From positions 1-49,226 of the IMG/VR virus record IMGVR_UViG_3300036790_000176: a stretch of 49,226 nucleotides of DNA, one strand, 5' to 3'. Source of the DNA: a virus. The position numbers and the translations under genes are program-made. This document shows, piece after piece, positions 2,947 through 10,878 of the stretch; position 1 is the stretch's first letter; each line of letters starts with the position of its first letter. Under the pieces are notes generated by a model. It ran no database searches. It worked only from the letters and a program-made list of their open reading frames with translations, and was not told the origin of the DNA.

Positions 2947-3210
2947 ATGTCAGCACTTGAATCGGAAGACGTAGGCGTAGAAAGCCTAGACGAGCTCGCA
3001 ACAGAACCCACCCCCACCAGCGAGGGAGAGGAGGCAACCAATGGCAAAGGACCCGAAGAAGGACAAGAAGAAGCCGGCGAAGGGCAAGAAGGAGAATCCC
3101 TTCATGAAGAAGGACAAGAAGAAGTAAGCCTATTCGGCGACGACGAGGATGATACTATCCTCGAAGACGACGAAGAGGACGACGAAGAGGAGGACGAGGA
3201 CGATGAGTAA
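2947..3210 (+). CDS. Highly acidic protein (87 aa)
   Basis: The product is dominated by Glu and Asp with almost no hydrophobic residues and ends in a run of Asp/Glu; it is likely disordered and might act as a DNA mimic or charge partner. AGAAAGAGG lies upstream of the ATG. Its last codons also supply the GAGGAGG ribosome site for queC, whose start lies inside the gene. A second small reading frame encoding a very basic peptide is embedded at 3041-3127. No homologous family is recognised. Confidence 0.6.
   Translation: MSALESEDVGVESLDELATEPTPTSEGEEATNGKGPEEGQEEAGEGQEGESLHEEGQEEVSLFGDDEDDTILEDDEEDDEEEDEDDE
3041..3127 (+). CDS. Embedded Lys-rich peptide (28 aa), alternative frame
   Basis: A 28-codon frame lies wholly inside the acidic gene in another frame. 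It begins MAKDPKKDKKKPAKG and is about half lysine. An unusually good ribosome site (GAGAGGAGG, with ATG seven bases after it) precedes the start. The same GAAGAAGGACAAGAAG sequence reads as Glu-rich in one frame and Lys-rich in the other. Whether one or both frames are translated cannot be told from a single sequence. Confidence 0.4.
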   Translation: MAKDPKKDKKKPAKGKKENPFMKKDKKK

Positions 3211-3907
3211 AAAAGCGATCGTCCTTCTCTCCGGCGGTCTCGATTCCTGCGTCACGGCAGCTATTGCCGTGGCTGCAGGACACGAGGCACACTTCCTCAA
3301 CGTATACTACGGCCAACGGCATTCTCGTGAACGCCTGTCGGCTATCTCCATCGCCGCTCACTACAATTACCCCATCACCCAAGTCGACGTACTCGGGTTT
3401 GGAAACATGGTGAAGAAAGGCACCATACTGACGGGTGCAGGAGAAGTGCCCGGTAACCGCTCAGAAGAAGATATGTCCCATGGGAAGGCTCCTTCATATG
3501 TCCCCGGTCGCAACACAGTCATGCTGGCTTTGGCGCAGTCCCTCGCTGAAGCGGAAGGCGCTAGCGTTATCTATACAGGGGTCAACGCTGTGGATTACAG
3601 TGGCTACGTTGACTGTCGTCCGGCGTTTATCGCAGGATGGAACGAGCTCGCCGAGGTTAGTACGTTCGCGGGCGTGGGAGGTTCGCCAATTTGGGTAGAA
3701 GCTCCGTTGATCGAGTTATCCAAGGCGGATATTGTCAAAGTGGGTTTGCGCCACAGAGCTCCGATGGACCTATCCTGGTCGTGTTACGCGGGCGGTGATC
3801 GGCCCTGCATGATATGTGATTCGTGTATTATACGGAACGCGGCGTTCAACGCGAACGGTATGACCGATCCATGGATCGTACAGAATGTAGGTGTACATGG
3901 CGTGTAA
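3203..3907 (+). CDS. queC: QueC, 7-cyano-7-deazaguanine (preQ0) synthase
   Basis: The 234 aa protein converts 7-carboxy-7-deazaguanine to preQ0 using ATP and ammonia. The N-terminal PP-loop SGGLDS (residues 10-15) binds ATP. Cys194, Cys202, Cys205 and Cys208 form the C-terminal zinc site typical of QueC. The ATG at 3203 is preferred to the upstream start because GAGGAGG lies just before it, and the length then fits the family. No fused amidotransferase domain is present, unlike the Gat-QueC proteins linked to archaeosine-type DNA modification. The 3' end overlaps the Sak4-like gene by 11 bases. Confidence 0.95.
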   Translation: MSKKAIVLLSGGLDSCVTAAIAVAAGHEAHFLNVYYGQRHSRERLSAISIAAHYNYPITQVDVLGFGNMVKKGTILTGAGEVPGNRSEEDMSHGKAPSYVPGRNTVMLALAQSLAEAEGASVIYTGVNAVDYSGYVDCRPAFIAGWNELAEVSTFAGVGGSPIWVEAPLIELSKADIVKVGLRHRAPMDLSWSCYAGGDRPCMICDSCIIRNAAFNANGMTDPWIVQNVGVHGV

Positions 3908-4673
3908 ATACAAAACCGTCGTATTCGATTCCGCTGGCGAACTGGCGCGTTTGTACTTCTCTCGTGACATCGGCAAAACAGCTGAGGACATGGAAAAGAT
4001 CCGTGCTGTGAACAATTATGTAGGTACTACGGAACGCCTGAATATGCTTATACGGCGAACCAAAGACCTGCGGAAACAAGGGGTGAACGTTGTCTTCCTC
4101 GCGCACGAAGATATTCAGAAGGTATATGGTCGCGGAGGGGCTATCACTGCAAAGGGACAAACTCCACAGGAACCGGTTACTATTAAAGGTCAGTTGGACT
4201 TACCCGGAAACCGGACACCGGACGAGTTCTCGCGCGCTGCCGATAACATCTTCCACGTTCGATATGCTATGGGAAAACCTGTGTGGGTTGCGAGACGCGA
4301 GCCGTTATCTTCTGGGTCCGACTACTGGGAGGTGAAGGATCGATTCAACGCTCCTGCTATATCCGCTGGTATGTTCCCCGCGGATTGGGCGCAACTGGAG
4401 CGTTTAGCCAAAGCGAACCCTGCTTGCAACTGGGATCCACCGTACATAACCGTTTTGTACGGGCCCCCTGGTATTGGGAAGACCAGATCCCTTCTGACCT
4501 TCCCTACTCCCATGTACGTGTTCGATCTCGATCAGGGGGCCAAGTCTATAGCAAAAGAGACAACGGCCGCCAATGAGAAAGAACCGGGCACGTATACGAT
4601 CAACGATACAATCAACCCAGAGCATGGGCCGGATTATGACAAGTTCATAACCGCTTACGCTGATCTCTTTTAA
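3897..4673 (+). CDS. Sak4/AAA_24-like RecA-fold ATPase in circularly permuted order
   Basis: The 258 aa protein has all the expected parts of a phage Sak4-type recombination ATPase, in swapped order. Residues 7-12 (TVVFDS, Asp11) look like Walker B. Residues 64-71 (NVVFLAHE) look like the following strand, and 142-150 (DYWEVKDRF) like the family's C-terminal signature. Only then comes the P-loop GPPGIGKT (189-196) with the FPTPMYVFDLD strand that normally follows the Walker A helix. The C-terminal end (YDKFITAYADLF) would join smoothly to the N-terminal KYKTVVFD in a normal protein. The ribosome site is weak; GTG at 3891 is an alternative start. The SSB-like gene downstream supports a recombination role. 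Confidence 0.75.
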   Translation: MACKYKTVVFDSAGELARLYFSRDIGKTAEDMEKIRAVNNYVGTTERLNMLIRRTKDLRKQGVNVVFLAHEDIQKVYGRGGAITAKGQTPQEPVTIKGQLDLPGNRTPDEFSRAADNIFHVRYAMGKPVWVARREPLSSGSDYWEVKDRFNAPAISAGMFPADWAQLERLAKANPACNWDPPYITVLYGPPGIGKTRSLLTFPTPMYVFDLDQGAKSIAKETTAANEKEPGTYTINDTINPEHGPDYDKFITAYADLF

Positions 4674-4700: not shown

Positions 4701-4904
4701 ATGATCCAGATCACTATCAGCGTAGACGACCGTCAATGGCCCAACCTGCAGATGGTTATGACCACTAAAGACGTAAACGGTGCTCCAACAGCGGATGTTA
4801 AGAGCGCCTTGTACGATACGGCGTATACACAATTCGAGGTTATGGTTCAGAACCGCCTCCGCGCTTTAGTACAGAGTTTATCGCAAAGACGTCTCGGGAA
4901 GTAA
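4701..4904 (+). CDS. Hypothetical protein (67 aa)
   Basis: Function is not recognised. It is a soluble small protein with a beta-like N-terminus and a helical, Arg-rich C-terminus. GAAAGGAGG precedes the ATG. It sits between the Sak4-like ATPase and the SSB-like gene, so a link to recombination or replication is possible but only by position. Confidence 0.7.
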   Translation: MIQITISVDDRQWPNLQMVMTTKDVNGAPTADVKSALYDTAYTQFEVMVQNRLRALVQSLSQRRLGK

Positions 4905-4938: not shown

Positions 4939-5382
4939 ATGTTACGTACATTGGATATGTCACAAGTCCCCGACCAGGGTGAGGTAGTAGACGAAGGCCC
5001 GTATCTCGTCCGGATTTCTGAGGTCAAGGAAACCGACGACAACGGCGACCCACTCAAGTCCGATTCATCGGGGGGCGAAAAGGTGATCTTCGTTTTGAAG
5101 ATCCAGGACGAGGGTAAGTGGACGGGATCTCAACTGCAGATCCACGCGTCACTGCAACCCCACGCGTTGTTCAACCTCAAAGCGATCTATTCTGCATGCG
5201 GATACAAACCCGGCGTGGAAGGTCACGATCCGCAAGAAGTCCTGGACGGCGAAATGTATATCTACGTCAAGCACAAGCAGTACGACGATCCCAACACGGG
5301 CCAGAAGCGTACGGTGACGGACATCCCCACTTGGGGGATCAAAAGCACAACGGACGGCCCAGCCAAGCCACGTCAGAAATAA
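4939..5382 (+). CDS. DUF669/SSB-like single-strand DNA-binding protein
   Basis: The 147 aa protein resembles the SSB-like DUF669 group that commonly accompanies Sak4-type ATPases: a beta-rich body containing EGPYLVRISEV, a KVIFVLKI strand and an LNAIYSA-like helix (here LKAIYSACG), ending in a Pro/Lys tail. It would bind single-stranded DNA and cooperate with the recombinase. AAGGAGAAACAC precedes the ATG. The assignment rests on general pattern and neighbourhood; no invariant catalytic motif exists to check. Confidence 0.55.
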   Translation: MLRTLDMSQVPDQGEVVDEGPYLVRISEVKETDDNGDPLKSDSSGGEKVIFVLKIQDEGKWTGSQLQIHASLQPHALFNLKAIYSACGYKPGVEGHDPQEVLDGEMYIYVKHKQYDDPNTGQKRTVTDIPTWGIKSTTDGPAKPRQK

Positions 5383-7853: not shown

Positions 7854-8398
7854 AAAACGAACTGCTCGAACAAGGTGTTGCTTTAATACTCGCCGGCCTG
7901 GAGGTTGATCTCGATGACCACAATTTCACCGACACTCCCAAGAGATACGCAAAAGCCTTGGGTGAAATTTTCGCACAGCACAACGGACCCCCTACAGCAT
8001 TTGAGGAGTGCTATACCGACTTTATTCTCGTACGTGGGGTCAAAATCACGACCTTATGTCCTCATCACCTGCTTCCAGTGCGGATGCGCGTTGCGTTGGC
8101 CTATATCCCATCAGGACGCGTCTTGGGCCTCTCAAAACTTGTCCGAGTTATGCAACAGGCTAATACCGGACCCGTTATGCAAGAAAGGTTTACCTACGCG
8201 GTCCGTGAAAGATTGGAAACCGCGCTTGCGTCGACTATAAACGGGATCTGCATTATGGTAGAAGGCACGCATGATTGCATGGCTCTCCGCGGGGTGAAAT
8301 CGGACGCCACAACAATCACAATGGCCACCTCGGGGAGGTTTGATACCGAACCCGCGCTGTTGGACCGTTTTCTGTTACTCACACGCGGGGGGAGGTAA
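7850..8398 (+). CDS. folE: FolE, GTP cyclohydrolase I
   Basis: The 182 aa protein converts GTP to dihydroneopterin triphosphate, the first step to preQ0. Zinc ligands are Cys70 and His73 in CPHHLLP and Cys143 in GTHDCMALRG, the latter standing for the usual EAxHxCMxxRG. FTDTPKRYAKAL and the GLSKLVR strand match the family. Length is normal for phage FolE. It overlaps both neighbours by a few bases. Confidence 0.95.
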   Translation: MKNELLEQGVALILAGLEVDLDDHNFTDTPKRYAKALGEIFAQHNGPPTAFEECYTDFILVRGVKITTLCPHHLLPVRMRVALAYIPSGRVLGLSKLVRVMQQANTGPVMQERFTYAVRERLETALASTINGICIMVEGTHDCMALRGVKSDATTITMATSGRFDTEPALLDRFLLLTRGGR

Positions 8399-10878
8399 TG
8401 TCCGTTGCCAAACCGCAAAAGTGCGTCGGCTGTCCTCTATACGGGGCTCCAGGGCCTGTTTGGGGAGAGGGTATCAAGCCAAACCCTCTCGCAATTATCG
8501 GTCAGAATCCGGGACCGCAAGAAATCCAAGAGCACCGGCCCTTTGTTGGGGCTAGTGGCAGTATCCTTAATAGAACCCTGCAGAAGGTCGGAATTTCTCG
8601 TCAGGGCTCATACGTTACTAACGTCGTCAAGTGCTACGTTAAGCCAGGATCTTCGGTTCCTCCTGCGGCAGTACACCATTGCAAACGGGCCTTCCTCGAT
8701 GAGGAAATCAAAGAGCTAAAACCCCGCGTGGTACTTACCCTAGGTCAGGAGGCTTTTGATGCACTTTGTTCACCGAAACATCTCGCCCTTATCCATACAC
8801 GTCAATCCGCCAAAAACGATCCTTCTTATTGGTTGGCGGGTGCTCCTTATCCTCATCCTCTCGGTTTCACTGTGGTCGGTGCTGCTCATCCTGCTTTTGT
8901 TGCTCGAACGGGGTTTGCTTTACTGCCTAAGTTAGAGAAGCAGGTGTCCCAGGCCCTCAACATCATGATGAACGGGACACCCCAGAAAACTGAGGTGGAG
9001 TATAAATACGATCCCACGGATCAGGAAGTGCGGGAATACATCCCTTACATGCTTTCCCATCGAGCTGGGGGGTGCGATATCGAAACCACGTACCGTATCG
9101 TGGAAGAGGATGAAGAGGCGGAGAAATATGAAGAGAACAAGGTTCTTGAAATCGGTTTGGCTGCCAACGTCAATTCGTATCTTTCCGTTAAGCCGGACCA
9201 ATTCCACCTTCTTGGGTCCTTATTCCATCCCTATGATGGACGAACTCCTCTGCGTTTATGGTGTTACGGGGCGCAAACTGAGTTTCATTATCTCTCCAGG
9301 ATGTTCGAAGGAAACCCAGGCGTACAGTGGGCTGACGCTATGTTGGCGTTTCACTTATTATGGCCAGACGAAGTCTCTAAGGATCTTGGTACGGCGATGG
9401 CGCTGTACTCTCGTTGGGGATATCACAAAAACCTCGAACACCGAGATCCAATTTGGTATAACGTTCAGGACACTGTGGGGTGTTTAGAAATTGGGGAGGC
9501 GATGTACACCGAGCTTAGTGGGTTACCCATTCCCGCGACCGAGTTATTCTGGTCTTTGTGTGAGTGCGTTCCCGAGGTCTTAGCTTGGCAGCATGACGGA
9601 TGTCCGTATAATCAGGAAGCGTCGGACCTGGCTGAGTATAAACTGGCGAAGGCGCTTGAACGGTATGAGCTGTTCTGGAACACCAAATTCCCCTTAACTT
9701 CCTGGTCCTCGCCCAAACAGTTGATCGGGTTGTTCGATACTCTGGGGTTCAAAGCCCCGATGAAGAACCGGGTGAAGAAGGATAAGAAAACCGGGCAGAC
9801 CATACGTACTCGTACTCCTTCAATGGACGAGGAAGCGTTGGAGAAGATCGCAGCCAAGGGATCTGCGATAGCCAAGCTCATTATCCTAATGCGTCAGTTA
9901 CGCAAGTCTGGAGACTTCTGCAACCTAGCGGAGAGAGGTCGGTTACGTACTCGGGCTAAAATCCACGGACAGGCTGGGGGACGTATCCAAACGGTAGACA
10001 AGAACCTGCAACAGATCCCCGAAGAAATGATGGTCGATCCCAAGGTAGACGGTTCAGGGATCTTCCCTCGAGAACAGGTGGTACCGGAGCATGAAGACGA
10101 CATCATCGTGGCTGCCGACTTTTCGCAGATCGAGTTTTGGCTCTATGCATATTACTCTAGGTGCCAGAAGCTTATTGATATCAAAGACCGCGGTGAGTAT
10201 CTTTACGGGGACTTCTACGAAGGAATCTGGAATGAACCATTTTTTCTACCTGGTGTCCCGCGGACGAAAGGCAACAGGGACGATTCGATTACACCACCCT
10301 GGAAGCTTCTCGTGGCTAAAAGCTGGCCCCTTGGTTTTATATACGGACGTGGAGTCCCCGGAGTTGAGGGCCTACCTATCACTCCAGCTCGGGCAAAGCA
10401 GCTACGTGCAGACTTCTTTTCGTCCTATCCTGAAATTGGCACGTACCATAACAAGCTTATGTTTACGGCGTCAAAACAAGGGTTTCTTCAGACGCCTTTC
10501 GGTAGGCTTCGTCGTTTCGCCAACCCGGAAGCGCAACGCAATGCCCTACTGGCCTTCCCCGGTCAATCTACCGCGCCAGATATTCTTATCCAAAAAGTCA
10601 TACTTGAGGCTGGACGCAACGTGGCACGGTTGTTTGGTTCCAGGTCTAGGTTATATTTCACCGTCCACGATTCGGGGATCTTCAATATACACGGAGGACG
10701 AAAAGACAGGCAACTTGGTGTTGACGCATTGAACTACATCGCAACGACGATGTCCTCCCCGATTCCGGAACTGGACGGGTTTTCAATCCCCTGCGAAGCG
10801 AAAATCGGTCCTAACTGGGGTCGTTTATACTCGGCGGAGAAGTATCTGAATGGTAAAATCGCCACGGCATCAACTTGA
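8398..10878 (+). CDS. Uracil-DNA glycosylase / family A DNA polymerase fusion
   Basis: The 826 aa protein begins with a family 4-type uracil-DNA glycosylase (residues about 1-190): Fe-S cysteines Cys9, Cys12, Cys79 and Cys95, IIGQNPG motif near 33-39, RPFVG, and HP at 164-165. A 3'-5' exonuclease domain follows (Asp227 and Glu229 in GCDIET), then the polymerase. Motif A is DFSQIEF (574-580), motif B includes K641 and FIYG (647-650), and motif C is HDS (757-759), where HDE is usual. It is the replicative polymerase candidate. The fusion suggests coupling of uracil removal, or uracil sensing, to synthesis. Confidence 0.88.
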   Translation: MSVAKPQKCVGCPLYGAPGPVWGEGIKPNPLAIIGQNPGPQEIQEHRPFVGASGSILNRTLQKVGISRQGSYVTNVVKCYVKPGSSVPPAAVHHCKRAFLDEEIKELKPRVVLTLGQEAFDALCSPKHLALIHTRQSAKNDPSYWLAGAPYPHPLGFTVVGAAHPAFVARTGFALLPKLEKQVSQALNIMMNGTPQKTEVEYKYDPTDQEVREYIPYMLSHRAGGCDIETTYRIVEEDEEAEKYEENKVLEIGLAANVNSYLSVKPDQFHLLGSLFHPYDGRTPLRLWCYGAQTEFHYLSRMFEGNPGVQWADAMLAFHLLWPDEVSKDLGTAMALYSRWGYHKNLEHRDPIWYNVQDTVGCLEIGEAMYTELSGLPIPATELFWSLCECVPEVLAWQHDGCPYNQEASDLAEYKLAKALERYELFWNTKFPLTSWSSPKQLIGLFDTLGFKAPMKNRVKKDKKTGQTIRTRTPSMDEEALEKIAAKGSAIAKLIILMRQLRKSGDFCNLAERGRLRTRAKIHGQAGGRIQTVDKNLQQIPEEMMVDPKVDGSGIFPREQVVPEHEDDIIVAADFSQIEFWLYAYYSRCQKLIDIKDRGEYLYGDFYEGIWNEPFFLPGVPRTKGNRDDSITPPWKLLVAKSWPLGFIYGRGVPGVEGLPITPARAKQLRADFFSSYPEIGTYHNKLMFTASKQGFLQTPFGRLRRFANPEAQRNALLAFPGQSTAPDILIQKVILEAGRNVARLFGSRSRLYFTVHDSGIFNIHGGRKDRQLGVDALNYIATTMSSPIPELDGFSIPCEAKIGPNWGRLYSAEKYLNGKIATAST

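Follow-up and report, generated by a model that had tools for sequence, protein, structure and literature searches.

The locus described here raises the question of whether a Sak4 recombination ATPase can occur naturally with the two parts of its RecA core in reversed order along the chain. The window is the whole stretch of DNA that was analysed, 49,226 nucleotides of a virus record. Within it, a frame on the + strand (3897–4673) runs uninterrupted from an ATG at 3897 to a TAA at 4671–4673 and encodes a Sak4-like RecA-core ATPase of 258 aa, here termed cpSak4; a GTG at 3891 is a possible alternative start. The original prediction, made from the sequence alone, had read this single open frame as a circularly permuted Sak4, with a Walker B-like TVVFDS at residues 7–12 and the Walker A sequence GPPGIGKT only at residues 189–196. 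The frame and both positions are as it gave them, and the later strands that it had noted are located at residues 65–71 (VVFLAHE) and 143–150 (YWEVKDRF). The Walker B segment (3915–3932) aligns with KYKSVGIDA of ordinary Sak4 and is a strand (E7–11) in the AlphaFold2 model described below. The P-loop (4461–4484) is recognized from its motif and by profile–profile alignment.

In Pfam cpSak4 matches AAA_24 (PF13479) with 59.6 bits, against a cut-off of 27 (E = 4.7e-16), the match being divided into two stretches. AAA_24 alone passes its cut-off, and there is no GTPase family among the matches. The protein is thus of core-only size, with no other Pfam domain and no extra domain of the RecA/Rad51 kind. 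It also matches the PHROG family phrog_124 (Sak4-like ssDNA annealing protein; E = 1.5e-20). Three scans of IMG/VR recovered 13 further distinct contigs carrying a continuous homologue in the same order, with identities of 47–80%. All 14 permuted members match both AAA_24 and phrog_124, each at E ≤ 0.001.

The two stretches of each family match are in reversed order. Positions 64–150 of AAA_24 correspond to cpSak4 residues 4–92 (3906–4172, E = 2.0e-9), while positions 5–42 lie downstream in the P-loop part of the protein (4449–4565, E = 5.0e-8). Likewise, phrog_124 positions 108–236 match at 3906–4349 and are followed by positions 41–84 at 4434–4568; ordinary Sak4s of six further phages or contigs each give a single colinear match to this family. 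The protein may therefore be divided into an N-half (residues 4–177, 3906–4427), equivalent to the C-terminal two thirds of an ordinary Sak4 from the Walker B strand to the C-terminal helix, and a C-half (residues 178–258, 4428–4670) equivalent to the N-terminal third. HMMs made separately from the two halves were used to score their order at each locus. The N-half precedes the C-half in 14 of 14 permuted loci, and where both halves score the C-half comes first in PMBT14, Lebethron, MW202455, STP12, H103, Sa179lw, 98201, Polewnik and L024. The weaker of the matches in ordinary Sak4 loci are marginal, and the order is also visible by eye in the alignment. The canonical Sak4 arrangement, with Walker A near the N-terminus and Walker B downstream, is reversed in every one of the 14 members.

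The position of the cut was defined by profile–profile alignment (hhalign) of the permuted proteins with ten ordinary Sak4 proteins. Each half aligns with ordinary Sak4 (P = 8e-12 and 8e-14), and chance is excluded by P values of about 1e-11 to 1e-13 for the two halves. Residues 185–257 of cpSak4 align with 33–91 of the PMBT14 Sak4, and residues 4–76 align with 97–169. On the ordinary protein the aligned blocks are five residues apart, so that the ends of cpSak4 lie on either side of a five-residue loop that connects a helix with the Walker B strand, and hardly anything has been lost. Judged from this alignment the permutation is exact and tight. The C-terminal AYADLF and the N-terminal KYKTVVFD, which had been taken as the two sides of the natural junction, are indeed those that flank the five-residue loop. 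From residue 77 to 140 the N-half has diverged too far to match the ordinary Sak4 set directly by profile, although phrog_124 aligns through residue 151. At the new join (residues 162–183, 4380–4445) the old C-terminal helix, LPADWAQLERLA-like and spanning residues 164–173 in the AlphaFold2 model, is followed by about ten residues and then by strand β1 carrying the P-loop (184–188). In order and in cut, these comparisons of sequence provide good support for cpSak4 as a circularly permuted Sak4. That reading, put forward in the original prediction, is upheld by the reversed AAA_24 and phrog_124 matches, the order of the half-HMMs and the hhalign alignments; the profile search with swapped halves that it had proposed, performed with the halves searched separately, found both matching Sak4 in reversed order.

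The residues expected around bound ATP are retained. Invariant in the 14 members are G189, G192, G194, K195, T196 and R197 of Walker A, together with D212 and the pair K147/R149. In the cryo-EM structure of the filament formed by Sak4 of phage 52A (PDB 8RC5), ATP-γ-S is contacted by Lys41 and Thr42 of one subunit and by Lys229, Arg231 and His232 of the next (PMC11846896). When a tag of 20 residues is allowed for, these fall on the GKT and T-K-I-R-H sequences of the deposited chain, and T-K-I-R-H aligns with the K-x-R motif of ordinary Sak4. The phrog_124 alignment places K147-x-R149 of cpSak4 (4335–4343) at the same K-x-R, so that it would correspond to Lys229-x-Arg231, which contacts the ATP of the neighbour; this correspondence rests on profile alignment. 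The ATP site therefore appears to be kept in cpSak4 in both its cis and its trans parts.

Could the reversed order nevertheless be degenerate or artefactual, either left over from a tandem duplication or created by an assembly error that fused two gene ends? Permutations typically arise by tandem duplication in which the outer halves are then lost, and one relative (L017) has a frameshift near the start of the gene. That frameshift (L017:4900–5060) is probably a sequencing error, because the upstream frame still encodes SPKYNTIVIDSVHEWARLTFS. It is the only one among the 13 relatives, of which ten are full-length and two are truncated by contig ends, and four (L006, L007, L014 and L015) have a GGAGG resembling a ribosome binding site shortly 5′ to the permuted start. 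An assembly error was rejected, since the same order occurs in 13 other, independent contigs; these were also the relatives whose existence had been proposed as a check. The gene is under strong purifying selection. For the L002/L003 pair dN is 0.085 and dS 1.22 (dN/dS about 0.07), for the window and L001 dN is 0.17 with dS saturated, and dN is far below dS in the N-half and the C-half taken separately; a pseudogene was rejected on this basis. The active-site residues are invariant, and the flanks hold no remnant copies. A second Sak4 was sought as an AAA_24 or phrog_124 gene, and the 14 contigs, several of them fragmentary, contain none. This speaks against the concern raised with the original prediction that a separate normal Sak4 might exist beside a pseudogene, although another recombinase may be encoded beyond the fragmentary contigs. 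A degenerate or artefactual origin has almost no probability left, and cpSak4 is treated below as an intact permuted Sak4.

The lineage seems to be absent from isolated phages. INPHARED phages gave only weak half-matches to ordinary Sak4 and no close relative of cpSak4; in this collection the matches to cpSak4 and to the polymerase of the window are remote, and the nuclease has a single weak one. Plasmids searched for close relatives yielded nothing useful, and two scans of GTDB species genomes with restrictive peptide patterns found no relative of cpSak4. The 13 relatives all come from IMG/VR, and the window, too, is a virus record.

AlphaFold2 predicts that cpSak4 folds as a single compact domain. 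With 10 homologues the model has pLDDT 74.7 and pTM 0.77, and with the 14 permuted homologues these values are 81.8 and 0.82, the mean pLDDT of the five models being 75–82. The succession of strands and helices is that expected for a permuted RecA core. Residues 74–105 (4116–4211), which follow strand β4, are rich in Lys, Arg and Gly and mostly of low confidence, with pLDDT <50 at 74–84 and 90–105; K75, G80, G81 and K97 are conserved within this region. From their low confidence, their position after β4 and their composition, residues 74–84 and 90–105 may be read as a putative ssDNA-binding loop that would become ordered on DNA. A search of the PDB and BFVD with Foldseek found no RecA-like match at E ≤ 0.001. 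Foldseek aligns structures in chain order, and this result is therefore uninformative for a permutant. The structural comparison suggested with the original prediction has thus been answered in part: a single confident domain (pTM 0.82) is predicted, but the chain-order aligner returned no RecA match.

A different assembly of the two halves can be envisaged, in which each half completes the RecA core of a neighbouring subunit and the chain forms a covalently threaded, domain-swapped filament. RecA-family proteins, Sak4 included, do form filaments with ATP bound between subunits, and the join between helix 164–173 and strand 184–188 is short, at about 10 residues. The monomer model, by contrast, packs both halves into a single domain (pTM 0.82), with similar confidence across the five models, although monomer runs cannot exclude swapping. 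We regard such swapping as very unlikely, and favour the single-domain fold.

The permutation can be described as follows. An ancestral Sak4, running from β1 and the P-loop to a helix and then from the Walker B strand to the C-terminal helix, would have been reopened in the surface loop preceding the Walker B strand. Its old C-terminus would have been joined to its old N-terminus, giving the order Walker B, β4, K-x-R, C-terminal helix, P-loop, β2 and helix. What was once the N-terminus, next to the P-loop strand, is now an internal linker; the new free ends probably lie at the sheet's edge, away from the ATP site. When a tree is built from both halves, the permuted proteins fall into one group (89/91), with long branches, and one change of label suffices. 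Because they form one group, a single permutation event is the simplest reading, to which the tree lends moderate support. The route suggested in the original prediction, tandem duplication and then loss of the outer halves, is the usual one for permutations and is plausible for cpSak4; no remnants of lost outer halves are found in the flanks. A search for transitional phages through the nuclease and the polymerase recovered relatives of two kinds, permuted syntenic ones and remote ones, with no transitional form. Two remote nuclease loci (L024 and L025) have a Sak4 with the P-loop first, and two others (L031 and L032) gave no half-HMM match.

The genes around cpSak4 are those of a recombination module. 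On the + strand, a PD-(D/E)XK exonuclease (1836–2828; PF12705, E = 3.8e-10; phrog_1218 exonuclease) is syntenic in the relatives. The gene for QueC, 7-cyano-7-deazaguanine synthase (3203–3907, +; PF06508, E = 2.1e-53), overlaps the start of cpSak4, and its position is conserved. Downstream of cpSak4 lies orf67 (4701–4904, +), a small protein of 67 aa with no family match that is conserved in most relatives, and then a DUF669-like gene (4939–5382, +), again conserved in position. The original prediction had an SSB-like partner gene following cpSak4. A probable SSB partner is indicated by the weak match of this second gene to DUF669 (PF05037, E = 0.0057, below the Pfam cut-off); it is two genes downstream, with orf67 between. 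As far as the contigs reach, the 13 relatives carry the nuclease, QueC, cpSak4, orf67, the DUF669-like gene, QueD, QueE, FolE and UDG-PolA. Phages with ordinary Sak4 likewise have a module of nuclease, Sak4 and next gene, close to a polymerase of distant similarity; in MW202455 the stretch after Sak4 resembles the DUF669-like protein.

Other features of this region are worth recording. The UDG-PolA ORF of the window (8398–10878, 826 aa) combines a uracil-DNA-glycosylase-like domain (PF03167, residues 30–183) with a family A DNA polymerase (PF00476), and the polymerases of Lebethron and MW202455 share similarity with its N-terminal part. Between 3203 and 8398, genes for QueC, a QueD-like protein (PTPS), a radical SAM QueE-like protein and FolE (GTP cyclohydrolase I) make up a preQ0 pathway. 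Its interleaving with the recombination module suggests that the phage DNA may carry 7-deazaguanine modification. A highly acidic ORF of 87 aa with a terminal run of Asp and Glu (2947–3210) recalls acidic SSB tails or DNA mimics, and L001 has a similar acidic ORF at the equivalent position (5084–5305).

The HK620 Sak4 is an ssDNA-binding protein with ATP-dependent annealing activity, and a DUF669-type SSB from the neighbouring gene stimulates it (PMC5928155). The HK620 DUF669 protein is a proven SSB, and a gene of this type has been reported near up to 80% of sak4 genes (PMC5928155). By analogy, the role of cpSak4 is most likely that of an ssDNA-annealing recombinase. We consider it highly probable that this permuted Sak4 is the phage's ATP-dependent recombinase of this kind, acting with the DUF669-like SSB and the PD-(D/E)XK exonuclease. 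As in the Sak4 family, cpSak4 would bind ATP between neighbouring subunits, form filaments on the ssDNA that the adjacent exonuclease generates and the DUF669-like SSB covers, and anneal complementary strands in the recombination and replication of the phage. The AAA_24 sequence family is broader than the proven annealases, however, and a deep divergence separates the lineage from ordinary Sak4; given that the annealing role is drawn by analogy, the permuted ATPase core might instead have taken on another task, such as loading or regulating the adjacent nuclease or polymerase. This appears improbable for a gene that sits with a nuclease and a DUF669-like gene, in the slot after the nuclease that ordinary Sak4 fills in related modules, that keeps all the Sak4 motifs and whose 14 contigs yielded no other Sak4. 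The annealing recombinase remains the preferred reading. In RecA-family proteins an N-terminal element helps to join neighbouring subunits. Since in cpSak4 the old N-terminal element is now an internal linker, the permuted protein could polymerise differently, domain-swapped and covalently threaded filaments included, and perhaps evade host or satellite inhibitors of ordinary Sak4 filaments; we put this forward as an unlikely but possible consequence.

A literature search, with subscription literature and preprints outside its scope, found no description of a permuted Sak4 or of a permuted RecA/Rad51 core; papers using related terms apply 'permuted' to genome ends or methylases. The original prediction knew of no permuted Sak4, and the search agrees in that none of the papers it covered pairs Sak4 with circular permutation. 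Within the literature searched, cpSak4 is apparently the first natural permuted RecA/Rad51-type recombinase to be described. As the only Sak4 found in its lineage, it would mean that neither folding nor filament assembly dictates the order of the RecA core. It also shows which loop accepts new ends, and so offers a natural guide to permuted or tagged annealases in recombineering. Domain scans present such proteins as two half-matches, and comparable permutants may consequently be hidden in annotation.

cpSak4 is a Sak4 by sequence and sites that lacks the canonical motif order of the family. With Sak4 of the PHROG 124/AAA_24 type (HK620, phage 52A in PDB 8RC5, PMBT14 and Lebethron) it has in common the core-only RecA size, Walker A, Walker B, the K-x-R trans motif, a neighbouring nuclease gene and a weakly matching DUF669-like gene, and a sequence match above the family cut-off. 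Unlike these proteins, cpSak4 begins at the Walker B strand, with its P-loop at residues 189–196 and not near the N-terminus. RecA, Rad51 and RadB share the superfamily fold and the filament mode that would be expected for cpSak4 through Sak4, but Sak4 is without the extra domains of RecA and Rad51. Among GTPases, YlqF and YjeQ (RsgA), with the order G4-G5-G1-G2-G3, are likewise natural permutations of a P-loop NTPase that keep function; they have another cut point and serve ribosome assembly. The permuted Ras-like GTPase cpRAS has the motif order G3-G4-G5-G1-G2 (PMC2430557). Like cpSak4 it is a P-loop NTPase reopened before the Walker B (G3) strand, although it belongs to the eukaryotic Ras-family GTPases, a different family, and the parallel is convergent. 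Cut at the equivalent position, cpRAS is the closest parallel to cpSak4.
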